DNA of 23,146 bases, from positions 1 to 23,146 of IMG/VR virus record IMGVR_UViG_3300048109_000012, one strand, 5' to 3'. Below are positions 861-19,581 of this stretch, piece by piece. The notes below the pieces were generated by a model. The model ran no database searches. It was not told the DNA's origin and saw only the letters and a list, made by a program, of their open reading frames with translations. The stretch is from a virus. Numbering within the stretch: position 1 is the first letter of the stretch; every line of letters starts with the position of its first letter. A program made the position numbers and the translations under genes.

Positions 861-2918
861 ATGGCTAAGAAGTTTGCAGGTTTTAAACAGGAAGCAATGG
901 AGAAGAAGATTCTCCCTGCGTTAGGTTATACTGGCCCTATGGATCAGAAGTCCATTAATGCTTTTCTTGCGTCTAACCCTGGTGCTGCTGCTAAGATGGG
1001 CAGATACACACTAGCTGCACGTCAGCGCATTGAGGGTAACCGTATAGGTATGGCTGAAGGTGGTCTTACCTCTGCAGTAGATGCAGCACAGGCTACTGTA
1101 ACAGATAGACGTAATGCTCTATCTGCTGCTCAACTTGCTGCTGCAGCTAACCCCCAAGATACATCCCTTATGTCTGCAGTTAACGCTGCACAAGTAGCCC
1201 TGACACAATCAGAGGCTGCTCTTAGTTCTGCTCGTTCTAACCTAACAGGTTCAGTAAACACACCGGAAGTACGTGCTAGGTCTATTGCAGATCCTATGTC
1301 TATCACACAGACAGCACCTGTAGCTACAGCAACACCTGCTCAAGTTGCAGCTGGTACTATTGACCCTACCACAGGCCAGATGACTGCACCACTTGCTACA
1401 GCAACACCTAGCGCTGTAACACCAGCTGCTCCTGCTATGGCTGCTGCACCTCAACCTGCTGCTACTGTAACTGCACAGACTGCAGCAGACCCTATTGCAG
1501 AGGCAGTAGAAGATTTAACTGCTGCTACAGGAGCACCTAGTGAGGCTGCTCAAGCACAAGCTGCTACCATGCAGCCTACCGACTTAGCCCAATTAGCTGT
1601 AGCTCCTGAGACTATTGCACAAGCTCGTACTGTAGAGGCACCTGCTCCTCGTGCTGTACAAGAGGGTGAGATGATTGCTGGCCCTACTGTAGACATGGAG
1701 CGTGTACGTACAGAGACAAACTTTGCTGCTGCTACAGGTGCACCCTCTACAGATGCTACTGTACAAGGGCAACTTACTGGCTTAATGGAGCAGTTTGAGG
1801 GTAATGAACCTCCTGCATGGGCTGCAGGTGCTATGAGGGCTGCTACAGCTACTATGGCTGCACGTGGTTTAGGTGCATCATCTATGGCAGGTCAGGCTAT
1901 TATCCAAGCTGCTATGGAGTCTGCACTACCTATTGCTGTACAGGATGCACAGACAGCTGCCTCATTTGAGATGCAGAACCTGAGTAACCGCCAACAGGCT
2001 GCTCTATTTGCTGCAGAGAAACGTGCTGAGTTCCTTAACCTAGAGTTTACACAAGACTTCCAGACACGTGTTACTAACGCTGCTAAGATCAGTGACATTG
2101 CTAACATGAACTTTAGTGCTGACGTACAGGTTGCACTAGAGAATGCACAGATGGCACAGACTGTAGACCTAGAGAACCTTAGCGCTAAGAATGCTAAGAT
2201 TATGGCTGATGTTGCAGCTATGTCACAGGTTGATATGACTAACCTCAACAACCGTCAACAGGCTCAAGTACAAACAGCTAACGCTTTCCTAAGTATGGAT
2301 ATGCGTAACCTAGACAATGAGCAACAGACATCTATGTTTAAAACACAAGAGATGGTTAACGCTATGCTCAGTGATCAGGCTGCTGCAAATGCTGCGTTAC
2401 AGTTTAATGCTACCTCTGAGAACCAGACTAACCAGTTCTTTAGCTCTCTAGCTACACAGGTATCACAGTTCAACTCAGAGCAGACTAACGCTATAGCACG
2501 TTTCAATGCTGGTGAAGCTAACAGTCTGGCTCAGTTTAATGCAACACAGAACAATGCACGTGATCAGTTTAATGCACAGAACCACCTAGTTGTAGCACAA
2601 GCAAACGCTGAGTGGATAAACAAGATTACTACCGCACAGAATGCAGCAGAGAACCAAGCAAACCGTGATGCGGTACTAGCAGCAAATAACTTTACAATGA
2701 CTGGCTATAATAATATGTTACAGCGAGAGCGTGACATCCTTAGCTGGGCATGGAGTTCCGGTGAATCCGCTTTAGAAAGAGACTCTAATGTTGTTGTCGC
2801 TAAAATTGCTGCTGATGCCAAGGCTGGTGACGCTACTGATCCTCTCGCCAGTGCAAGTGGAAAAGTACTCTCTGCAATTGCCGATAACGCAATTGATCTC
2901 ATATTCGGTAAGGATTAA
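861..2918 (+). CDS. Alanine-rich repeat virion protein, 685 aa (candidate internal virion/ejection protein)
   Basis: Three parts are visible. Residues 1-60 are a short basic/helical head. Residues about 60-310 are Ala/Thr/Pro/Gln-rich and low in complexity. Residues 314-365 are a conserved-looking block (PPAWAAGAMRAATATMAARG, then LGASSMAGQAIIQAA) that I recall from structural proteins of marine phages. From residue 369 to about 632 the protein runs in an exact 22-residue period without gaps, with NL/NF and QFNA signatures, as expected for hendecad (11-residue) helical rods. The rest is a short C-terminal domain. There is no signal peptide. A long Ala/Gln/Asn-rich helical protein in a T7-like late operon beside a lysozyme suggests an ejection protein or a fibre/needle component. 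The first is favoured but unproven. Confidence 0.7.
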   Translation: MAKKFAGFKQEAMEKKILPALGYTGPMDQKSINAFLASNPGAAAKMGRYTLAARQRIEGNRIGMAEGGLTSAVDAAQATVTDRRNALSAAQLAAAANPQDTSLMSAVNAAQVALTQSEAALSSARSNLTGSVNTPEVRARSIADPMSITQTAPVATATPAQVAAGTIDPTTGQMTAPLATATPSAVTPAAPAMAAAPQPAATVTAQTAADPIAEAVEDLTAATGAPSEAAQAQAATMQPTDLAQLAVAPETIAQARTVEAPAPRAVQEGEMIAGPTVDMERVRTETNFAAATGAPSTDATVQGQLTGLMEQFEGNEPPAWAAGAMRAATATMAARGLGASSMAGQAIIQAAMESALPIAVQDAQTAASFEMQNLSNRQQAALFAAEKRAEFLNLEFTQDFQTRVTNAAKISDIANMNFSADVQVALENAQMAQTVDLENLSAKNAKIMADVAAMSQVDMTNLNNRQQAQVQTANAFLSMDMRNLDNEQQTSMFKTQEMVNAMLSDQAAANAALQFNATSENQTNQFFSSLATQVSQFNSEQTNAIARFNAGEANSLAQFNATQNNARDQFNAQNHLVVAQANAEWINKITTAQNAAENQANRDAVLAANNFTMTGYNNMLQRERDILSWAWSSGESALERDSNVVVAKIAADAKAGDATDPLASASGKVLSAIADNAIDLIFGKD
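1965..2756 (+). repeat. Coding repeat: twelve 22-residue (2x11) units in the 685-aa virion protein
   Basis: Residues 369-632 can be cut into twelve consecutive 22-residue blocks with no insertion or deletion. Block starts read FEMQNL, FLNLEF, IANMNF, VDLENL, VDMTNL, MDMRNL, AMLSDQ, TNQFFS, IARFNA, RDQFNA, ITTAQN, FTMTGY. In the later blocks a QFNA-type motif recurs at block positions 3 and 14, which is an 11-residue half-period. This is protein-level periodicity; the DNA copies have diverged. Confidence 0.75.
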
Positions 2919-2922
2919 TAGT

Positions 2923-4569
2923 ATGCCATTTCAAGACTATGGATATAAACCCTCAGGTATTACACGCCCAAAAGCACGTCCTAAACCTAAAGCAACAAGT
3001 AGCTCATACTACTCAGGTAATGAGTTTGGTTCTGGTAACATCTTTACAGAGACTAGTCCAGGTGCCAGTACAGTAAACTTTGGTAACAACAATAATAATA
3101 ATAACAATGATAACAATAGCTACCAAGCACCTTCTTTAGTACAGGCTCCTACACCTACAGTAACTGCCCCTGCAGCACCTACCCCTGCGCAGATTGAAGC
3201 AGAGAGACAGGATCGTATTGCTAGAGTGTTTGAGGCTGCAGGTGCTACACTACCTCAGGATACAGGTAGAATGGGTAGAGTTGGTAGAGGTATAGATCTC
3301 TATAGTCGTGATATATTTACCACACCCTTTGTAGCCACACCTGATAACACGCAGGAGATTACAGACTATCTACAACGTACTGCAGTAGATGATGCTTTGC
3401 GTGATGCACTAGGTATGCCAGAAGTATATCAGGGTACACCAACTCAAGAAGAACCAGAGCCAAACATTGATATGTCTGTACTGCAGGAAGCAATGATGCC
3501 TGAGCCTATCACTGTAGAGGAACTGCCTGATGGGAGGGGTGGCTTGATGGGTTCTCCTACACTGGGTACTATTGCACCTGATGCAGAGGTTATGAACTTT
3601 TCAGACCGCTCAGCACTAACAAACATGGATAACCTCCAGCTTGTAGACATAGAAGATGAGACGGGTTCTGCAGGGCTTATGACACGCCCTAAAGCTAGAC
3701 CAGAAGGGTTACGTGCATTAAGCGAACCAGAGAAGAATAAAGCTGCTCAAAAGTACTTAGGCATAACTGCAGATGGTATTTGGGGTAAAGGCTCTACCAG
3801 AAAACTAGCTGGATGGCAGTACCAAAACGGAGTACCTGTATCTGGGGTACTAGATGAAGCTACTATCAAAGCTATGGAAAACCCAGAAACAGAAGACCCT
3901 AGAAAAGAAATAACACGTAAGTCTGTACTAAACACAGCAGGAACAGCGCCTGATATTAGTAAGGTAAAAGATTGGGCTAAGGAAAACATAAAAGATCCAA
4001 TGAGAGCAGCAGCCTTTGTAGCTACTGTTGAGGCTGAAACAGGTGGTAGGGCATTAGTTGAGAGTGGTCATACTTTAAAAAGCGCAGTTAGAACATTTGT
4101 AACAAACAATAAGTACATGCACGAGGGTAATGACGTAAGAAGACCCTTAACTGCAAAGGGCAAAAGACGTAAGCAGAAGCTAGAAGCCTTAGGAAGTAAC
4201 GCCACAGGCGATGAGATATTTGACTTCATCTACGGCCCAGACACAGATGCTATTGGCGGCAATCTAGGTAACACCTCAGCTACGGACGGCTCTAAGTACA
4301 AAGGTCGAGGTCTAGTACAAATTACAGGCAAGGATAACTACCAGAGAGTTGGTGATATTATTGGTGTAGATTTGGTCAATAATCCTGAGTTAGTAAAAGA
4401 CCCTAAGTATGCTGCTGCTGCTGCAATGGCGTACCTAACTTTACCAGGAAAAGATTTCTTTGATGGTACACTTACGAGTGATAAACTTGCTAGTGCTATA
4501 GGTCATACGGGTTCTGCTGCTACTAGGTGGTCTAGGGCTACTGCACTAAAGAATGAGATGTATCCCTAA
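2923..4569 (+). CDS. Virion-associated or lytic muralytic enzyme: peptidoglycan-binding + GH19-like lysozyme domain, 548 aa
   Basis: The start is at 2923 (AAGGA at 2910-2914) and not further upstream, where the frame overlaps the previous gene. Residues 1-265 are a low-complexity, Pro/Ala/Asn-rich linker region. Residues about 270-320 are a PG_binding_1-type repeat (YLGITADGIWGKGSTRKLAG). Residues about 350-548 resemble glycoside hydrolase 19 / phage lysozyme. FVATVEAETGGR carries Glu370/Glu372 as catalytic candidates, and KYKGRGLVQITGKDNYQ (from Lys458) is the hallmark GH19-like strand, followed by NPELVKDP. It would cleave the glycan strand of peptidoglycan. The long disordered N-terminus and its place between structural genes fit a virion-borne enzyme used at DNA entry. 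The holin-like gene directly after it equally fits an endolysin. Confidence 0.85.
   Translation: MPFQDYGYKPSGITRPKARPKPKATSSSYYSGNEFGSGNIFTETSPGASTVNFGNNNNNNNNDNNSYQAPSLVQAPTPTVTAPAAPTPAQIEAERQDRIARVFEAAGATLPQDTGRMGRVGRGIDLYSRDIFTTPFVATPDNTQEITDYLQRTAVDDALRDALGMPEVYQGTPTQEEPEPNIDMSVLQEAMMPEPITVEELPDGRGGLMGSPTLGTIAPDAEVMNFSDRSALTNMDNLQLVDIEDETGSAGLMTRPKARPEGLRALSEPEKNKAAQKYLGITADGIWGKGSTRKLAGWQYQNGVPVSGVLDEATIKAMENPETEDPRKEITRKSVLNTAGTAPDISKVKDWAKENIKDPMRAAAFVATVEAETGGRALVESGHTLKSAVRTFVTNNKYMHEGNDVRRPLTAKGKRRKQKLEALGSNATGDEIFDFIYGPDTDAIGGNLGNTSATDGSKYKGRGLVQITGKDNYQRVGDIIGVDLVNNPELVKDPKYAAAAAMAYLTLPGKDFFDGTLTSDKLASAIGHTGSAATRWSRATALKNEMYP
3085..3117 (+). repeat. AAC/AAT trinucleotide tract coding for poly-Asn
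   Basis: Eleven codons of which ten are AAC or AAT and one is GAT, giving NNNNNNNNDNN in the disordered N-terminal region of the lysozyme-domain protein. It is imperfect, mixing AAC and AAT, which limits but does not exclude in-frame copy-number change. Confidence 0.8.
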
Positions 4570-4991
4570 TGTTCGGACTCCCCCTAGAACTTATCACCAT
4601 GTTATTCTCCACCGTGCTAGGTGGGGTCATGTCTATATGGGGTCAGTCTAACAAGAACAAAGCAGAGCAACAGAAGCTACTCATAGCAGGACAGCAGCAA
4701 GCCAGAGAGCATGGCAAGACTGACGCACACTTTGCATGGACACGTAGGATCATAGCTTTATCTGCTGTAGGGTCAATTATTGTCTTGCCAAAGGTAGCAG
4801 CTTTGTTGTATCCTGAGGTCAACGTTATCGTAGGCTACACTGAAATGCAAGGTGGCTTCCTTAACTGGTTGTTTGGTACTACAGAAGCTATTGAGTGGAA
4901 GTATGCACAAGGCTTCGTTATCACACCCCTAGACACACACATCGTTTCCGCCATTGTAGGGTTGTACTTTGGCGCAGGTTTCACTAAGTAA
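4569..4991 (+). CDS. Small membrane protein, holin candidate, 140 aa
   Basis: The ATG overlaps the preceding TAA (TAATG, 4567-4571), so translation is probably coupled to the lysozyme gene. Three hydrophobic segments are visible. Residues about 4-23 are ELITMLFSTVLGGVMSIW. Residues about 60-85 are RRIIALSAVGSIIVLPKVAA. A C-terminal one lies at about 120-137 (THIVSAIVGLYFGAGF). Between the first and second is a charged stretch (SNKNKAEQQKLLIAGQQQ) that looks like a coiled coil. Length, membrane-segment number and pairing with a muralytic enzyme fit a class I-like holin that would permeabilise the inner membrane. The rather long loops are less typical, so a different virion or membrane role remains possible. 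Confidence 0.65.
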   Translation: MFGLPLELITMLFSTVLGGVMSIWGQSNKNKAEQQKLLIAGQQQAREHGKTDAHFAWTRRIIALSAVGSIIVLPKVAALLYPEVNVIVGYTEMQGGFLNWLFGTTEAIEWKYAQGFVITPLDTHIVSAIVGLYFGAGFTK

Positions 4992-5002
4992 GGTATATTA
5001 TT

Positions 5003-5554
5003 ATGGCTACAGCATTTGATAGGCCCATTCCAGGGCAGTCTCTAACAGGAGAGCCTCGTAACTTTCCGTGGGAGCAACCTGCTGAGATGAGCAGTATTGA
5101 AGAGGTGACTAAGTTTTACATTGGACGCCTTGCTAATCAGGATGTCATTGATGACTTTGGTGCTTTGTGTCAGGCTGGTGTCTCACTAGCTCCCATTGTA
5201 GAGTCCGTCTATCTAGTAGGTGTAATGCGTGGCATACACAGCCTTGATACAGGTATGTTGGCTGCACCTACCATTCACACATTCCTAAAGCAAGCTATTG
5301 AGGCTATGGGTATCTCTGTTAAAGATACAAGTGATGATCCACAGAAACGTGCAGAAGATGCAGAGATGGAACGCTTCCGCTTAGTTGCTAACAAGTATCT
5401 CTTAACGGAGGATGACGATGATATGTCTGACCCTGGTAAAGAGATGCTTAGTGAGATGCTAGAGGAAGAAGGAGAAGCTGAGCAACCTGCAGAGGATGTA
5501 ATGCCAGAAGAAACAATGAACGAAGAGCCTACGGGCTTAATGGCAAGGGGTTAA
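5003..5554 (+). CDS. Probable structural protein, 183 aa, acidic C-terminus
   Basis: The N-terminus (FDRPIPGQSLTGEPRNFPWE) has a pattern I recall from uncharacterised proteins in the structural clusters of marine phages. Residues 30-110 are predicted helical. Residues about 130-175 are strongly acidic (DDDD, EEEGE, EEPTG), probably disordered. The protein ends in TGLMARG, which resembles the GLMTRPKARP motif inside the lysozyme-domain protein. There are no membrane segments. It sits 11 bp after the holin candidate and 3 bp before the next gene. No function can be named. The acidic tail could act as a DNA-mimicking or chaperone-like segment during head assembly, which is speculation. Confidence 0.7.
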   Translation: MATAFDRPIPGQSLTGEPRNFPWEQPAEMSSIEEVTKFYIGRLANQDVIDDFGALCQAGVSLAPIVESVYLVGVMRGIHSLDTGMLAAPTIHTFLKQAIEAMGISVKDTSDDPQKRAEDAEMERFRLVANKYLLTEDDDDMSDPGKEMLSEMLEEEGEAEQPAEDVMPEETMNEEPTGLMARG

Positions 5555-5557
5555 GAC

Positions 5558-6916
5558 ATGGCATTTGATTGGAAAGACTTTGCAGCTGCATTCCTAGAAG
5601 GTACAGCAAAGAACATTGAGCGCCGTGGTGAAGAAGCTAGGACGTATGAGAAAGAGCAGAAGGAAGCAGCTAAGCGTAATGCAGAGGTTATCCGTAACCG
5701 TGCAGCTAAAGCTAAGCAGGCTGCTACATATGCTCGTAAAGCTAAGATGTATCTAGGTAGCCACCCTCAAGCAGATATGATGGTTAAAGCAGCTATGTCA
5801 GCTGGCCCTGCAGAGATCGCAACACTATATGAAAAGCTAGAAGCTGCAGCTAATCAGCCAGGACAGAATGGTAAGCTGGGTGAAGCTGATATTGATACTC
5901 TAATCAACATGCCAGAACTTCCCAGTGTAGATGATAAGTATATTGACATGGGCTTGGAAGACTTTGCTATGCAAACCTATGGGGCAAGCAAAGGCTCTAT
6001 TGTACGTTCAGCAGAAGAACAGGAAGAAGTAGGCTTAGTTGGTCAGCTCTTTGGGTTTGGTGCAAAGCAACGTGTAGATGAACGTCTAGGTGAACAGCAG
6101 TATGGTATGGGTATGTCTATATCAGACATCAATGACCTAGCAGAGCAAGATGAATACCAAAACCTTATTAAGGATACTTCCCTTACATATGGTACACTAG
6201 ATCGTTTTGATTTGGCTGACTATACTAAGTTTGATGCTATCCTCACTAAGGCAATGAAGGATATTGTAGATACAAATGAAGCTGCCATAACCAATGCAGG
6301 TCTTCCAGGTGATCCAAAACGTGACGCATTTAAACAGCAGATACAACGTAAAGCAGCTGAGCCTCTCATTGCAGAGTCTGTAAGAGAGAACCCCCGTATG
6401 CTGGAAAGCCCTAGTGTAGCACAGAGGATTGTGGCTGTTATGGGCCAAGAGCATCTTGACAAACTATACATACAGTATGGTATCTTTACACAGGAAGAGC
6501 TAGACGAGATGCGTGGTGAGGGTGGTACAGTTCCTGCTGAAGGTGGTACGGGTGCAGAGCCTGCTGCTGCTGAACCTGCTGCTGAAGGTGCTGAGGGTGG
6601 TACGGGTGCTGAGCCTGCTGCTGTTACTACTCCAACCACTACAGAGGGTATAACACCTAGACCTAAGGCTAAGCGTAGAGACAGGAGTGCTAAACTTAAA
6701 CAGCGTGAATGGGATAGCAAGTACAAAGGTAAGTATGAGCCTGACACAGGTAAGCCTATCCTAGCTGGGCCACGTCCTGCCTTGGATGAATATCGCCAAG
6801 AGCCTACTATCGTAGCAGGTCGCACTCGAAGCGTATCACTGTATACTGAGTGGATGGATAAGTATGGTGATACACATGATCCAGAAACAGGTCTACCTTT
6901 GCCAGTAGAGGAATAG
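5558..6916 (+). CDS. Probable internal virion/structural protein, 452 aa
   Basis: A good ribosome-binding site (AGGGG, 8 nt upstream) supports the start. Residues 15-70 form a highly charged long helix rich in Lys/Arg/Glu/Ala (YEKEQKEAAKRNAEVIRNRA). The middle (about 110-315) is mixed and acidic. Residues 320-360 are a Gly/Ala/Glu/Pro linker with an 18-residue tandem repeat. The C-terminus carries GITPRPKAKR (from residue 364) and two copies of a 17-residue EW..KY...(E/D)P(D/E)TG.P motif. I do not recognise a named family. A helical charged head followed by a flexible repetitive linker fits an internal core or ejection protein similar in role to T7 gp14/gp15, inferred from position between the lysozyme and the 1152-aa protein. 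Confidence 0.65.
   Translation: MAFDWKDFAAAFLEGTAKNIERRGEEARTYEKEQKEAAKRNAEVIRNRAAKAKQAATYARKAKMYLGSHPQADMMVKAAMSAGPAEIATLYEKLEAAANQPGQNGKLGEADIDTLINMPELPSVDDKYIDMGLEDFAMQTYGASKGSIVRSAEEQEEVGLVGQLFGFGAKQRVDERLGEQQYGMGMSISDINDLAEQDEYQNLIKDTSLTYGTLDRFDLADYTKFDAILTKAMKDIVDTNEAAITNAGLPGDPKRDAFKQQIQRKAAEPLIAESVRENPRMLESPSVAQRIVAVMGQEHLDKLYIQYGIFTQEELDEMRGEGGTVPAEGGTGAEPAAAEPAAEGAEGGTGAEPAAVTTPTTTEGITPRPKAKRRDRSAKLKQREWDSKYKGKYEPDTGKPILAGPRPALDEYRQEPTIVAGRTRSVSLYTEWMDKYGDTHDPETGLPLPVEE
6539..6622 (+). repeat. 18-codon tandem repeat encoding EGGTGAEPAA
   Basis: Two copies of EGGTGAEPAA start at residues 328 (base 6539) and 346 (base 6593) of the 452-aa protein, separated by AEPAAEGA. A degenerate related unit (EGGTVPAE) precedes them. 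The DNA copies are nearly identical (GGTGGTACGGGTGC, then GAGCCTGCTGCTG with one change), so the duplication is recent and the linker length may vary between relatives. Confidence 0.75.
6707..6898 (+). repeat. Duplicated 17-residue C-terminal motif in the 452-aa protein
   Basis: EWDSKYKGKYEPDTGKP (6707-6757, residues 384-400) and EWMDKYGDTHDPETGLP (6848-6898, residues 431-447) align without gaps, sharing E-W, K-Y, P-(D/E)-T-G and P. The copies are 47 codons apart and the second ends five residues before the stop, which suggests two small binding modules at the C-terminus. Confidence 0.65.
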
Positions 6917-6920
6917 AGTA

Positions 6921-9900
6921 ATGGATAAGAGCGCTTATATTAGAGCCTACAAATCATCCCTGACAGACAAGCAAGTAGAATTACCTACACTAAAGCTAGA
7001 CCCTAAGGATGACTTTGTTATTGACCCTAACGTCACACTCAAGAAGGATGACTTAAAGAAGAACAACTACGTAAACCCTATCCGTGACTACATGGTTGCA
7101 CGTAAGGGCGTAGACTACAATGATGTAGAAGACGATAAACTTGTAGATGACTTTGTAGAACACATGCGTTACTTCAATGCTAACACTGTGTCTACTGCTG
7201 GTGAGGTACGCTTTGTTAGTAAGGCAGATGAAGCTGCTAAGCTCAAAGCTAAGAAAGCTTATCAGATCTATGACCAGTTAGGTAACGTCTTTGTTAATGA
7301 CGGTATCGCTGGTGCTGTAGGTGGTATCTGGGACTACGTTACTGCTGCAGCTACTGACCCTACAAACTACTTGGGTGTACTCACAGGTGGTATTGCTCGT
7401 GCTGGTGCAGGTGGTGTTGCCCTTGGTGGTAAGCAAGTAATCAAGGCTGCTGTACGTAATGCAGGACGTGAAGCCCTAAAGAGTGGTGCTAATAAACAGG
7501 CTGCTCAAGAGGCTGCAAAGAAAGCTGGCATAGAGGCAGCAGATCGTGCATTAACTAAAGGTTACACAAAGACACAGGCTGATAAGATTGCTGCTAAAGT
7601 AGAAGCTAAGATGGCTCTTGAGGGGCCACGCGCTCTAGCTAAACAGTCTATGCTTACTGCACAGGAAGACTTGTTTAAGCAGGCGGGTAAGAGAGCGCTA
7701 AAGCAAACTACTGCGCTTGATGCTAGTGCTGCTATGTTACAAGATGTAATGAACCAGAACGCTAGGCTGGAAGTTAATGCACAGGAATCATACAGTGGAG
7801 CACAAACTGCATTCTCATCCTTACTGGGTGGTGTTGCTGGTGCAGCACAGCTAGGGTTTGGTAAGTTCCGTGGTGCCTCAGGCTATGGTGATGTAGGTGA
7901 TCCTCTTGAACGACTAGCTAACGTATCTATTGAGGAGGCTACACCCTTCCTTAAAGCAGAGGATGCTAAGAGAGCTTCTAAGGAAGTAGTAGATGCTGTC
8001 TCTACATGGGAAGAGAAAGTAGCACGTGGTGCAAGCTTTGATGAGGAGGGTGGTATTACCGCATCACTTATCAAGCACATCATTATTGGCGAAGATGGTA
8101 AGGGTGGTGTAGGTAAGGTTGTGAAGGATATGGGCTACAAGGTAGACCGTAACTTGAAGACAACAGACTTCATCACTAACGTAATACGTTACATGCCTCA
8201 AGAGGATTTAGTAAAAGCTAACTCTCTTATAAAGAAACACACAGGGGTACACCTAGGCGACTACGATGAAGTAGGCGTTAACCTCAGTGATCTTATTGCT
8301 GCTCGTATTAGTGATGCTGGTAAGCAGTTGAACGTGATGTCACAGCTGCGGCGTACCATAGACTCAGGTATTGTTGCTTCTTCTGATGCACTTGAGGCTA
8401 CTATTGAGAATGTAGAAAAGAACACTACGCCTGCACAGAAAAAGGAATACCTCAAGTATACACAGGGCGTGTGGAAACGTTTGCTTGTTTCATCCCCTGC
8501 TACTACAGCGCTTAACATTGCTGGCTATGGTCAGTTTGCTGCAGGTCAGACACTAGCAGATATATTTAATGCTGGTATGTATGGCCTTCAGGGTATAGGT
8601 ACGTCTGTCACTAATAAGGCTGCATCTAAGGAAGCGTTCCGCCGTATGAGAGCGCTTACTACTATTCAAGGGCAGAAGATCCGTAACTTTGCAGATCCAT
8701 ATACAACACGTGAGGCATACCTAAAGCTACTAGAAGAGAACCCTGACATTCAGAAGGCTCTCTTTGAAACGTTTGCTGGCGGTGTAGATGCTACAGCTAA
8801 ACGCCATGGTCTTGACCCTACAAACACAGCCTTTAAAAACATAGAAGCTGTAACAAACGCAGCCAACACCATCACAGGTGTGCGTATTCAGGATACCTTT
8901 ACTAAGTCACAGATGTTTATGGGTGAGTTAGATAAGGCAGTACGTTTTAAACACGGTAAAACCCTCAAGGAAGTTATCAACGGTACAGATGATACGCTTC
9001 TTGATGATGAGGTAATGCAGTCTGCCCTAGATACAACACTCAAGTCTGTGTTCTCTAAGGATTATACGGCTAAGAGTCAGCCGGAGATGGTGCGACAACT
9101 AGCTAATGGTGTTGAAACCTTCTCAAGCATACCTGGCTTAGGTACTATCCTGCCGTTTGGGCGCTTCTTTAATAACGTCCTAGCTACAGCGTACCAGTGG
9201 AACATCCTAGCTGCACCTGAGATGCTCATCAAGTTTGGTCAACGTGCAAAGAGAGGACAGAAGGCAGATCTCTCAGAGATGGAAGCTTTTGCACGTATGA
9301 CTATTGGGACATCTGCGCTGGGCATGGCTGCAGCGTATGACCAAGAGCGCCGTGATAAGGGCTTAGCTTACAATGAGATTGATGTAGGTGGTGGCACTAT
9401 TGTAGATGCTAAGAACACCTACCCATTCTCTGCCTTCCTAGCCGCAGGGCGTATCGTAAATATGATAGCTCGTGATGAGGAAGTACCACCAGAGTTACTG
9501 CAAGAGATGGGTACTCAATTAGCTGTCGGTCAGTTGGCACGTGATGCACAGTTTGGTAACGACATTAACAACCTTATGGACATCCTAGTGAACCAAGAAG
9601 CAGGTGCACGTAAAGCTTCTGCCATGGGCTTAGCTAAGATAGGTGGTAACTTTGTATCAGGTTTCACTAGGCCACTAGACGCTGTTAACAAAGTAGTAGG
9701 CTTTGCTATGGGTACAGACGCAGCTAAGGATGTACGTCAAGCAGATGGCTCTTCCCAAGTCTTTACTCAGTCTGCTACTAAATACGTAGACAATCTGTTT
9801 GAAGTGTTTAGCGATAAGGTAGATGCTGTAACAGGTGATGAGCTACGTGTTGCTACACGTGAGGGGCAGCTATACGATGCCAACCCCTTTGCTCGTGTCT

Positions 9901-10379
9901 TTGGTTTGACTATCAAGCCAGCACGTACTGGTACAGAGAAAGCATACTCTATGGCTGAGATGTTTCCGTGGCAGGCATCAGAGCGTAGCAAGATCCCAGG
10001 TTATGATAGGGCGTTTAACTCTATCATTGCTCCTCTGTTAGAGAGACAAACAAACCAGCTGCTACGTACTAAAGCGTTTCAAGAGGGTAATCTCACACAA
10101 CGCAGGCAGATGCTCAAGACTGTAGTGTCAGATGCTAAGTCACAAGTACGTAAGTATATGAAGGCTGGTGGTGGCGGTAGAGAGAACGCTATGCTGGCAC
10201 TAGTACGTACTGCAGAGGGAAGAGCAAACAAAGAGATCCGTAATGAGGCTAAACGCTTGCTCAAAGAGAGACGTGGTATTGATGCTAGTCCACAGGATAT
10301 GAACTATCAGGAGCTAACCCTGTATATCTCTTACATAGACTACCTAAAGGACATATACGAGGAAGCATCCAGTATATAA
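6921..10379 (+). CDS. Large internal virion (ejection) protein candidate, 1152 aa
   Basis: It is the largest gene of the window and the last of the late block. GAGGAA lies about 8 nt before the ATG. The N-terminal 120 residues are charged (NPIRDYMVARKGVDYNDVED, then FVEHMRYFNANTV). Residues about 120-170 form a Gly/Ala-rich hydrophobic stretch (VFVNDGIAGAVGGIWDYVTA, LGVLTGGIARAGAGG) that could insert into membranes. Residues 175-260 are Ala/Lys-rich helix. The rest is long, helical and soluble, with a second hydrophobic part near residues 510-550. Size, composition and position match the role of T7 gp16-type proteins, which leave the head and span the cell envelope. Unlike T7 gp16 I see no lysozyme domain at its N-terminus; that activity is on the 548-aa protein. 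Proteins with similar N-termini occur in marine phages, from memory. Confidence 0.7.
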   Translation: MDKSAYIRAYKSSLTDKQVELPTLKLDPKDDFVIDPNVTLKKDDLKKNNYVNPIRDYMVARKGVDYNDVEDDKLVDDFVEHMRYFNANTVSTAGEVRFVSKADEAAKLKAKKAYQIYDQLGNVFVNDGIAGAVGGIWDYVTAAATDPTNYLGVLTGGIARAGAGGVALGGKQVIKAAVRNAGREALKSGANKQAAQEAAKKAGIEAADRALTKGYTKTQADKIAAKVEAKMALEGPRALAKQSMLTAQEDLFKQAGKRALKQTTALDASAAMLQDVMNQNARLEVNAQESYSGAQTAFSSLLGGVAGAAQLGFGKFRGASGYGDVGDPLERLANVSIEEATPFLKAEDAKRASKEVVDAVSTWEEKVARGASFDEEGGITASLIKHIIIGEDGKGGVGKVVKDMGYKVDRNLKTTDFITNVIRYMPQEDLVKANSLIKKHTGVHLGDYDEVGVNLSDLIAARISDAGKQLNVMSQLRRTIDSGIVASSDALEATIENVEKNTTPAQKKEYLKYTQGVWKRLLVSSPATTALNIAGYGQFAAGQTLADIFNAGMYGLQGIGTSVTNKAASKEAFRRMRALTTIQGQKIRNFADPYTTREAYLKLLEENPDIQKALFETFAGGVDATAKRHGLDPTNTAFKNIEAVTNAANTITGVRIQDTFTKSQMFMGELDKAVRFKHGKTLKEVINGTDDTLLDDEVMQSALDTTLKSVFSKDYTAKSQPEMVRQLANGVETFSSIPGLGTILPFGRFFNNVLATAYQWNILAAPEMLIKFGQRAKRGQKADLSEMEAFARMTIGTSALGMAAAYDQERRDKGLAYNEIDVGGGTIVDAKNTYPFSAFLAAGRIVNMIARDEEVPPELLQEMGTQLAVGQLARDAQFGNDINNLMDILVNQEAGARKASAMGLAKIGGNFVSGFTRPLDAVNKVVGFAMGTDAAKDVRQADGSSQVFTQSATKYVDNLFEVFSDKVDAVTGDELRVATREGQLYDANPFARVFGLTIKPARTGTEKAYSMAEMFPWQASERSKIPGYDRAFNSIIAPLLERQTNQLLRTKAFQEGNLTQRRQMLKTVVSDAKSQVRKYMKAGGGGRENAMLALVRTAEGRANKEIRNEAKRLLKERRGIDASPQDMNYQELTLYISYIDYLKDIYEEASSI

Positions 10380-17524: not shown

Positions 17525-17552
17525 GTTATACACTACACGTCTACTGTGTCAA
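17525..17552 (-). promoter_or_regulatory. Sigma70-type promoter in the polA-ssb gap
   Basis: On the - strand TTGACA (17552-17547) is a perfect -35 box, followed by a 16-bp spacer and TATAAC (17530-17525), five of six bases of a -10 box. The start of transcription would fall near 17518, about 29 nt before the ssb-candidate ATG at 17489, leaving room for AAAGGA. The -35 lies in the last codons of polA. The position, in the only sizeable gap of the - strand block, supports function. Confidence 0.72.
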
Positions 17553-19581
17553 GCCAATTAGGCCCAATCTTAGCTTCTAATAGTAGTGGTACATTCATTC
17601 GTATTCCATACACTGACTCAACCAGATCAGTCAAGCCCTCATTCATATCCTGTATCATATTTAATACTTGCTCTCTCTCATTAGGGTGAACGTCAATAAC
17701 TGTAGAGTCATGTACGGTATTAACCAAGCAGGATTGCATAGGCTCAAGTCTCTTGTACATCTCATTGAGTACAACAGGAACTACGTCACCTGTAGCAAAG
17801 CCCTGCACTGGGTAATTCTTAATCATGGTAAAGTATGTCACGCTACCATTGTCTCTTCGTTGCACATCAGGGAAGGCGTACTGCCTGCCTGACACGTTAG
17901 TGATCTTATTGAAGCGTAGTGCCTCATCAGCCAGGTTCTTGTGCCAGTTAGCCACACCCTGATACTTCTCAGTGAAGTGTTTGTAGTAAGCCTCCTCCGC
18001 CTTGGATCTGCCATACCCTGTAGCCCCAAAGAGAGGTGCAAAGGTATGAGCCTTGGCTTCCTGACGTGACGTAGGCTGTCCCGCATCAGAGATAACCTGT
18101 GCAGTGTAGCTGTGTACGTCAAAGCCTGTGTTGATCTCTTCCATAGCAACTTCATCCTGAGCTAGGTATGCAGCCGTTCTAAATTCAAGCTGAGCAAAGT
18201 CAGCCTCACAGATCTCACCACCCTCCCACCGTGACACAAAGACCTTCTTCACAGGGAACGTACCACCACGAGGCATGTTCTGCATGTTAGGTTCCTTGCC
18301 ACTGAAACGTCCTGTCGCTGTGACACTCTGAGTGAGGGTAGCATGTAGGAAGCCATCGTCCTTAGAATAACGCTCAATGCCATCAACAAACGTAGAGATG
18401 TAGCTGCTGATAGCGTTGTACCGTTGTAGATCCTCTAAGAAAGACACTGCCTCATACTTCTTGTGTGTCTTAGCCGTAGCAATAAGCAGACCTAGCTTGT
18501 CCTTACTGGTGCTGAAACCATTAGCACTGACCCACTTCTTGTTAGGTGCAGAGAAACGCAGCCCAGCAATCTGTTCTGTGTTCTTGAGTTGAAACCCACG
18601 TGTGTCACAGTCCTTGCATTTGTTAGGCTTAGCGAACCTAGTGCCATCCTTCTTGGTCTTGTATGTTTTGCCCTCACCCTCACAGGTTGGGCAGGTGAAT
18701 GCCTTGGTGCGGTAGACGTGGCTGCTGTTGGCCTTGACTGCCGCCTTGTACTCATCAATGTTCTTGGTGAACTCGAACAGTTCAGCCCACTCTTTCTTAT
18801 TGTTCATGCGGCGGCTAAAGATAACCTGAGACATCTGTTCATTAGAGCCTAAGTTAATTGGTGTGTCACCCATGATCTCACGCACCTTGATGTGCAGTCG
18901 TGTCTCTAACTCAGAGCGTTCATCCTCAAACTCTACTCGAACATCTTGGAGCTTTTGAAGATCGACTTTGATTCCTGACATGTGCATTCGGGTAAGGGTT
19001 TTACAGGTGTCGAAGGTAACATCTCTGACTGTGTGAAGGGACTGACTTTCTGGCTGGGCATAGTCTCTCTCCAAGGCATGGAACAGTTCGCTAGTAGTAA
19101 GAATGTCAGACACGAGATAGTCAGTGAGCTGGGTGAGATCCGTTTCATTGGTGTTGATTCCTTTCTTTAGGCAATCACTGAGGTAGTCGCCCTTCTTTAC
19201 GTCTAGGTCACGCCGTTCTGCTATAAGCTTGAGAGACAGGGGTGCACCCTGCCCTCGCTGAAGTATATACTCTGCAAGCATGGTGTCATAGATCGCACCG
19301 TCATAGGTGTATCCACTCTCCCACAACCACATCAAGTCATGCCGTGCATTGTGCATGATTAACAGGGTAGTCATATCAAGCACCGCCTGAACAAGGTTAT
19401 GCCCAGCGCCTGATGTATCCTTGGCCTCTACATGATCTAGGTTTACCACGTGTAGTTCAGTGTGATCGTCAGCGTTCACCATGCCGATCTGCGTTAGGGT
19501 GTTACCTGGCTCAAAGGGATCGTTGTATATCTTCCCTTCCTTCCAAGTCACACTGTTCTCTACGTCTAGTACTAATCTCAT
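17533..19581 (-). CDS. polA: Family A DNA polymerase with 3'-5' exonuclease, 682 aa
   Basis: The phage replicative polymerase. Exonuclease motifs: LDVEN (Asp6, Glu8), HNARHDLMWL, and YLVSD. Polymerase motif A is EADFAQLEFR (catalytic Asp461), motif B is RQEAKAHTFAPLFGATGYG (Arg506, Lys510, Phe514), motif C is TVHDSTV (His624, Asp625, Ser626). Between the two halves, after NLGSNEQMSQVIF, is an inserted zinc ribbon (Cys297, Cys300, Cys322, Cys325). Phe514 stands at the E. coli Phe762 / T7 Tyr526 position. Ser626 replaces the usual Glu of the HDE motif. There is no separate 5'-3' exonuclease domain. GGAGAG precedes the ATG, and the gene follows the helicase by 9 bp. Confidence 0.96.
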   Translation of the reverse strand: MRLVLDVENSVTWKEGKIYNDPFEPGNTLTQIGMVNADDHTELHVVNLDHVEAKDTSGAGHNLVQAVLDMTTLLIMHNARHDLMWLWESGYTYDGAIYDTMLAEYILQRGQGAPLSLKLIAERRDLDVKKGDYLSDCLKKGINTNETDLTQLTDYLVSDILTTSELFHALERDYAQPESQSLHTVRDVTFDTCKTLTRMHMSGIKVDLQKLQDVRVEFEDERSELETRLHIKVREIMGDTPINLGSNEQMSQVIFSRRMNNKKEWAELFEFTKNIDEYKAAVKANSSHVYRTKAFTCPTCEGEGKTYKTKKDGTRFAKPNKCKDCDTRGFQLKNTEQIAGLRFSAPNKKWVSANGFSTSKDKLGLLIATAKTHKKYEAVSFLEDLQRYNAISSYISTFVDGIERYSKDDGFLHATLTQSVTATGRFSGKEPNMQNMPRGGTFPVKKVFVSRWEGGEICEADFAQLEFRTAAYLAQDEVAMEEINTGFDVHSYTAQVISDAGQPTSRQEAKAHTFAPLFGATGYGRSKAEEAYYKHFTEKYQGVANWHKNLADEALRFNKITNVSGRQYAFPDVQRRDNGSVTYFTMIKNYPVQGFATGDVVPVVLNEMYKRLEPMQSCLVNTVHDSTVIDVHPNEREQVLNMIQDMNEGLTDLVESVYGIRMNVPLLLEAKIGPNWLDTVDV

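Follow-up and report, generated by a model that had tools for sequence, protein, structure and literature searches.

The window, as the whole stretch of 23,146 bases taken from a virus record is called here, carries on its plus strand a gene for a 685-residue protein, referred to below as the rod protein. Three further genes downstream complete the set of interest (Table 1), and the last of them closes the virion module, after which the coding strand switches. Between the rod gene and the gene for its 183-residue partner, positions 2923-4991 are occupied by a gene for a GH19/peptidoglycan-binding endolysin and by one for a small membrane protein, which is holin-like by its position and its hydrophobic segment. 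An insert of this type is absent from HMO-2011. In Pelagibacter phage HTVC115P (L061:11417-11866), the rod gene is followed at the place of the endolysin by a toxin-activating lysine-acyltransferase, according to the annotation as deposited. Elsewhere in the window, at 17533-19581 on the minus strand, lies a DNA polymerase frame with a CxxCxGxG zinc-finger-like insert, such as has been reported for HMO-2011-type phages (PMC6918029).

Table 1. Features of the rod gene and of the downstream cassette in the window.
Feature	Position	Strand	Remark
685-aa rod protein, whole ORF	861..2918	+	relatives in HMO-2011-type phages
Residues 1-296: N-terminal helices and Ala/Pro/Thr-rich linker, length very variable, without a period of 11 or 22	861..1748	+	
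Residues 297-356: conserved helical domain preceding the rod	1749..1928	+	Q304, P318, A321, G336 and A346 invariant
Residues 357-510: 22-residue repeats	1929..2390	+	NLxNxQQ at block positions 5-11
Residues 511-588: 11-residue repeats	2391..2624	+	QFNA; F515, 526, 537, 548, 559, 570
Residues 589-640: helical, without clear motif, fixed length	2625..2780	+	
Residues 641-685: C-terminal tail	2781..2915	+	
183-aa partner gene, gp7/gp14-sized slot	5003..5554	+	homologous in all isolates compared
452-aa gene, gp20/gp15-sized slot, divergent	5558..6916	+	size and order compared with PMC8954989
1152-aa gene, gp16-sized slot, divergent	6921..10379	+	size and order compared with PMC8954989

Relatives of the rod protein are present, as hypothetical proteins, in HMO-2011-type podoviruses and their kin. 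These include the Roseobacter CRP phages, Puniceispirillum phage HMO-2011, the Pelagibacter HTVC phages, Pseudoalteromonas phage Slicky01, Vibrio phage CHOED, Aeromonas phage MQM1, Sinorhizobium phage phiM6 and Rhizobium phages. At least 564 IMG/VR stretches encode such relatives, and the carriers of the gene, marine phages with short tails, form an abundant group. The same rod in the same register is found in direct homologues such as phage1322_25 of HMO-2011, gp44 of CRP-207, CHOED_013 and SmphiM6_25 of phiM6, all of which are annotated only as "hypothetical protein" and whose rod lengths differ by multiples of 11. When bacterial and archaeal genomes were scanned with the rod protein of the window as query, no relatives were detected. 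The same protein gave no significant match in Pfam, PHROGs or NCBIfam, and a PDB sequence search with two profiles yielded no match below E=0.2. A literature search found no virion proteomics of an HMO-2011-type phage, and neither mass spectrometry nor a structure was found for any member of the family. The rod proteins are, in short, a widespread and uncharacterised family under an unusually strict structural rule. In several relatives, DNA tandem repeats of 9-33 nt are present in the N-terminal Ala/Pro/Thr-rich part.

The initial annotation had described an exact 22-residue periodicity in the product of positions 1965-2756, which correspond to residues 369-632. The periodicity is even stronger than was claimed. 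The mean BLOSUM62 self-score of these residues is raised at lag 22 (z=7.7), followed by lags 44 (z=5.6), 11 (z=4.7), 33 (z=4.0) and 55 (z=3.9), while 2000 shuffles reached at most 4.84, whichever lag was taken. There is no rise at lags 7, 14 and 21 and hence no heptad signal. Residues 1-258 of the same protein have no signal at 11 or 22, and none of the five subsequent virion-module and lysis proteins of the window has such a periodicity. The proposed series of twelve 22-residue blocks has two parts: the period is 22 in residues 369-500 (z=6.7 at lag 22 and 1.4 at lag 11), whereas it is 11 in residues 501-632 (z=5.4 at lag 11). The N-L/N-F pair at block positions 5-6 is seen in five of the first six blocks and is missing from one. 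The signal fades at about residue 588, and in the last two blocks (589-610 and 611-632) the motif is missing and agreement with the block consensus is poor, yet the spacing is still held, with W585-R640 equal to 55 residues, or 5x11, wherever it is measurable. In Fourier terms, the dominant harmonic of the window's rod protein is 2.75 (11/4), where a canonical hendecad coiled coil should give 3.67 (11/3); the profile of the family has 3.67 as its strongest period in the late half but not in the early half. The tube, the needle, the right-handedness and the ejection role proposed along with the periodicity are inferences. As few 33-nt repeats are left in the DNA of the rod, its repeat expansion is mostly old, and a recent tandem duplication at the DNA level was rejected as the source of the repeats.

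The strict rule itself is seen when raw residue distances between conserved anchors (P357, W585 and R640) are measured in the relatives. The distance P357-W585 takes ten values, namely 140, 151, 162, 173, 184, 206, 217, 228, 283 and 316 residues, and it equals 8 mod 11 in all 178 measurable relatives (175 sequences together with three whose first anchor residue is not proline). The early and late halves vary independently, each being 4 mod 11 throughout. The length of the early half changes mostly in units of 22 and that of the late half in units of 11, although thirteen sequences have an early block of 147 rather than 158 residues, a difference of 11. No fewer than nine changes are needed to arrive at ten different lengths, and with a chance of 1/11 for each, such an outcome has a probability of about 4e-10. 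As controls, the N-terminal linker of the same proteins occurs in 109 lengths that cover all residues mod 11, and the distance W320-P357 shifts by single residues, from 35 to 37. The rule holds in the window protein and in fifteen isolates from different host groups.

Across the HMO-2011-type homologues, P357-R640 ranges from 206 to 371 residues. Phages on one strain, FZCC0040, have rods of 272 and 217 residues, and those of SAR11 phages measure 371 and 217. As the lengths are unequal among phages of one host strain, rod length tracks the phage and not the host; the idea that the rod is a ruler of the host periplasm is unsupported by these same pairs.

Over a total of 40,941 residues, the rods of the relatives have a single proline, along with 528 glycines, while the domain that precedes the rod in the window protein has 4% proline and 10% glycine. 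Asparagine and glutamine make up 25% of the rod, with N at phase 5 throughout. In the family profile, the late half has a classical hendecad core with a period of 3.67, in which phase 1 is I/V, phase 4 is F and phase 8 is L/W. In the early half, hydrophobic residues fall mainly at phases 3 and 6, Q is conserved at phase 10, and phase 1 gives a second seam. The stronger hydrophobic face thus switches sides near residue 510, and for this reason the two halves are probably packed differently.

Length changes in multiples of 11, together with the absence of proline, point to an uninterrupted hendecad helix within an assembly that is locked in register. We hold with considerable confidence that the architecture is a register-locked hendecad rod or tube; on this point the earlier proposal of a hendecad rod is well supported by the lags, the length changes, the lack of proline and the all-alpha prediction. 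The protein would form one long alpha-helix from about residue 340 to 640, built from hendecads, and the segment P357-R640 would measure about 42 nm if straight. Several copies lying side by side would give the rod or tube, with neighbouring helices in contact along a seam repeated at 11-residue intervals. Because of this repetition, only insertions and deletions in multiples of 11 would survive, hence the quantised length. Such a length is a sharp quantitative constraint. It gives an unknown gene the character of a mechanical part that can be tested, and from it the isolates are predicted to have straight helical assemblies, locked in register, of about 31-56 nm. The rod protein very probably forms a rigid rod or tube of many strands, with a job, as yet unproven in its details, in the virion or in DNA delivery.

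The gene neighbourhood offers a clue to this job. The order of rod gene, a gene for about 180 residues, one for about 500 and one for about 1100, at the end of the virion module, is shared by eight isolated phages. The gene for about 180 residues is homologous across all eight, and the two larger genes have diverged so far that most pairs give no match. In the isolates compared, the 183-residue partner is better conserved than both larger cassette proteins, and it has no significant match in Pfam, PHROGs or NCBIfam. Ejection proteins have been described as variable, with which the divergence of the two larger genes agrees (PMC8954989). Since the sizes and order of the downstream genes match those of gp14/gp15/gp16 or gp7/gp20/gp16, the rod gene, placed in the ejection operon next to them, is an additional upstream component. 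This agrees with the earlier view that it may be distinct from T7 gp14-gp16, the slots of their sizes being filled by the genes for 183, 452 and 1152 residues.

The three downstream proteins may be functional counterparts of gp7, gp20 and gp16, and the position of the rod gene suggests that its product belongs to the ejection cassette as a conserved fourth component. It would be carried in the virion and, when DNA is delivered, act as an elongated spacer or conduit. A conserved place in the cassette is no proof of ejection, and we infer the oligomer, its presence in the virion, its ejection and its conduction of DNA from the observations given above. The single reading that fits best is a rod or tube belonging to the ejection apparatus, which has about an even chance of being correct.

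The rod could instead be an external homotrimeric fibre or a tail needle, with the hendecads forming a trimeric coiled coil that would project from the tail and, in some members, fold with the aid of a C-terminal intramolecular chaperone. We consider this unlikely, though it ranks next after the ejection reading and has several points in its favour. S74 chaperones are best known from trimeric fibres, which this domain trimerises, and a C-terminal Peptidase_S74 domain is present on the subgroup II rod relatives CRP-3, CRP-738 and L076. Tail fibre genes lie directly upstream of the rod gene in related phages, and in P22 the needle gene 26 is situated shortly upstream of 7-20-16. However, a Pfam scan detects no S74 domain on the window protein, and the domain itself is not confined to fibres. 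In Cronobacter phage GAP52, gp94 (L124:7023-8255), a phrog_4287 DNA ejection protein in a slot comparable to that of the rod gene, has a C-terminal S74 domain at the Pfam cut-off, and in Vibrio phage PVA1 an unannotated ORF (L123:7398-8219) matches P22 gp7 and, weakly, S74. Judged by these matches, the C-terminal S74 domain belongs in both phages to DNA ejection proteins rather than to fibres. The needles examined also differ from the rod. No similarity was detected between the rod family and P22 gp26, whose periodicity is heptad (lags 14, 21 and 35) rather than hendecad, and the SU10 needle gp18 lacks an 11-residue periodicity. Moreover, the family and its partner of about 180 residues are conserved over very different hosts, unlike host-binding fibres.

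A further question is whether the rod is one helix over its whole length, and here the predicted structures disagree. An AlphaFold monomer computed from 62 full-length sequences has a continuous helix of 148 residues (486-633), with pLDDT near 80-89 across about 520-600. In a second monomer, for residues 297-685 with 104 sequences, the helix is broken about every 22 residues, with lower confidence there. Both models are all-alpha. Taken as a whole, the interpretation offered in the initial annotation is supported in part. A structure in which the early half is a solenoid of 22-residue helix-turn repeats, with the hendecad helix confined to the late half, is improbable in our estimation. It would agree with the breaks found in both models around positions 1-7 of the early blocks, with the S, T, D, N or G that occupies position 7 in 79% of cases, and with early length changes that are mostly multiples of 22. 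Yet turns would tolerate proline and glycine, and proline occurs at no early phase, with glycine being rare. Likewise, a solenoid should not vary by half a unit, and the changes of 11 in the early block, besides those of the late block, count against it. Alignment of the second model to designed helical repeats reaches Z 6-8, but values up to 8.0, which VIA-align gave with designed helical repeats and V-ATPase, are inside the noise stated for helical models. Foldseek searches of the PDB with both models found no match at E<=0.001. In BFVD there were four matches at E<=0.001 (24-39% identity), mostly unnamed and probably members of the family. As solenoid turns should accept proline and glycine, the proline exclusion and the 11-residue indels outweigh the second model, and a continuous hendecad helix is preferred.

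The least probable alternative, and a quite doubtful one, is a tape-measure-like rod whose 11-residue marks would determine how long a part of the particle becomes, with units duplicated or lost as in siphoviruses: it is favoured by six phenylalanines in exact register in the window protein (shuffle maximum 4 in 2000 trials) and by a length that follows the phage and not the host, but the HMO-2011-type relatives are podoviruses whose short tails offer no long tail tube to measure (PMC6918029), runs of more than three such F/W are missing from many members, SAR11 phages included, and no tape measure family was matched significantly, in BFVD or otherwise.

Among known systems, the cassettes of T7 (gp14-gp15-gp16) and P22 (gp7-gp20-gp16) are mirrored in size and order by the genes downstream of the rod. 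The rod gene is an extra upstream gene, and its product has no detectable homology to any of their proteins. Comparison of the family profiles with the P22 and T7 proteins by hhalign gave scores no better than reversed controls, in a comparison of weak sensitivity that also missed P22 gp7 against the phrog_4287 proteins. A resemblance noticed by eye between the RGLxxSS...PIA domain and the GGLGS...IAP motif of P22 gp7 was rejected, since its scores equal those of reversed controls.

A second comparison is with the phrog_4287 proteins of Kuravirus and Grimontviridae, to which SU10 gp21 and gp22 belong as well as GAP52 gp94. SU10 gp20-24 exit the particle upon genome release (PMC9509320). Like the rod gene, the phrog_4287 genes lie upstream of larger ejection-type genes, and gp94 shares the C-terminal S74 domain with rod subgroup II; unlike the rod, these proteins have no 11- or 22-residue period. 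The phrog_4287 profile does not match the body of the rod protein. The S74-bearing relatives match it through their S74 end, and neither residues 300-766 of L076 alone nor the window protein match it. No homology of the rod family to the SU10-type and GAP52 proteins was detected outside S74. As no link is left without this domain, the likeness is a positional and architectural analogy rather than a demonstrated homology.

Siphovirus tape measure proteins, too, vary in length by entire 11-residue units, which are marked by [FW]-x(10) (PMC3271669). The rod family shares the whole units in all its members and the aromatic residue at every eleventh position in some; it differs in its 200-370 residues, its richness in N/Q, its ejection-type cassette and its short-tailed phages.

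A further parallel is the DNA pilot protein H of phiX174, which acts in phage DNA delivery and, like the rod protein, has a long, Q/N-rich hendecad helix (PMC7354561). In H, three hendecads are followed by eleven heptads around an amide-lined lumen (PMC7354561), which presents amide and guanidinium side chains. The rod protein has the hendecad (11,3) helix of the H tube but, unlike H, no heptads after its hendecads. Between the rod profile and a single H sequence, hhalign gave no significant match (E=0.14 over 16 columns), and at the sequence level membership of the rod in either H tubes or tape measure proteins finds no support. phiX174 is a tail-less ssDNA phage, whereas the rod carriers are short-tailed. 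It is conceivable, though rather unlikely, that the rod is the tailed-phage counterpart of the H tube, an amide-rich helical barrel of HMO-2011-type podoviruses, built from hendecads, that would conduct DNA across the periplasm and whose length would evolve by 11-residue quanta. If the rod is indeed a conduit that is ejected, a single solution, a hendecad tube that takes DNA through the cell envelope, would have been reached both by tailed phages and by tail-less microviruses.
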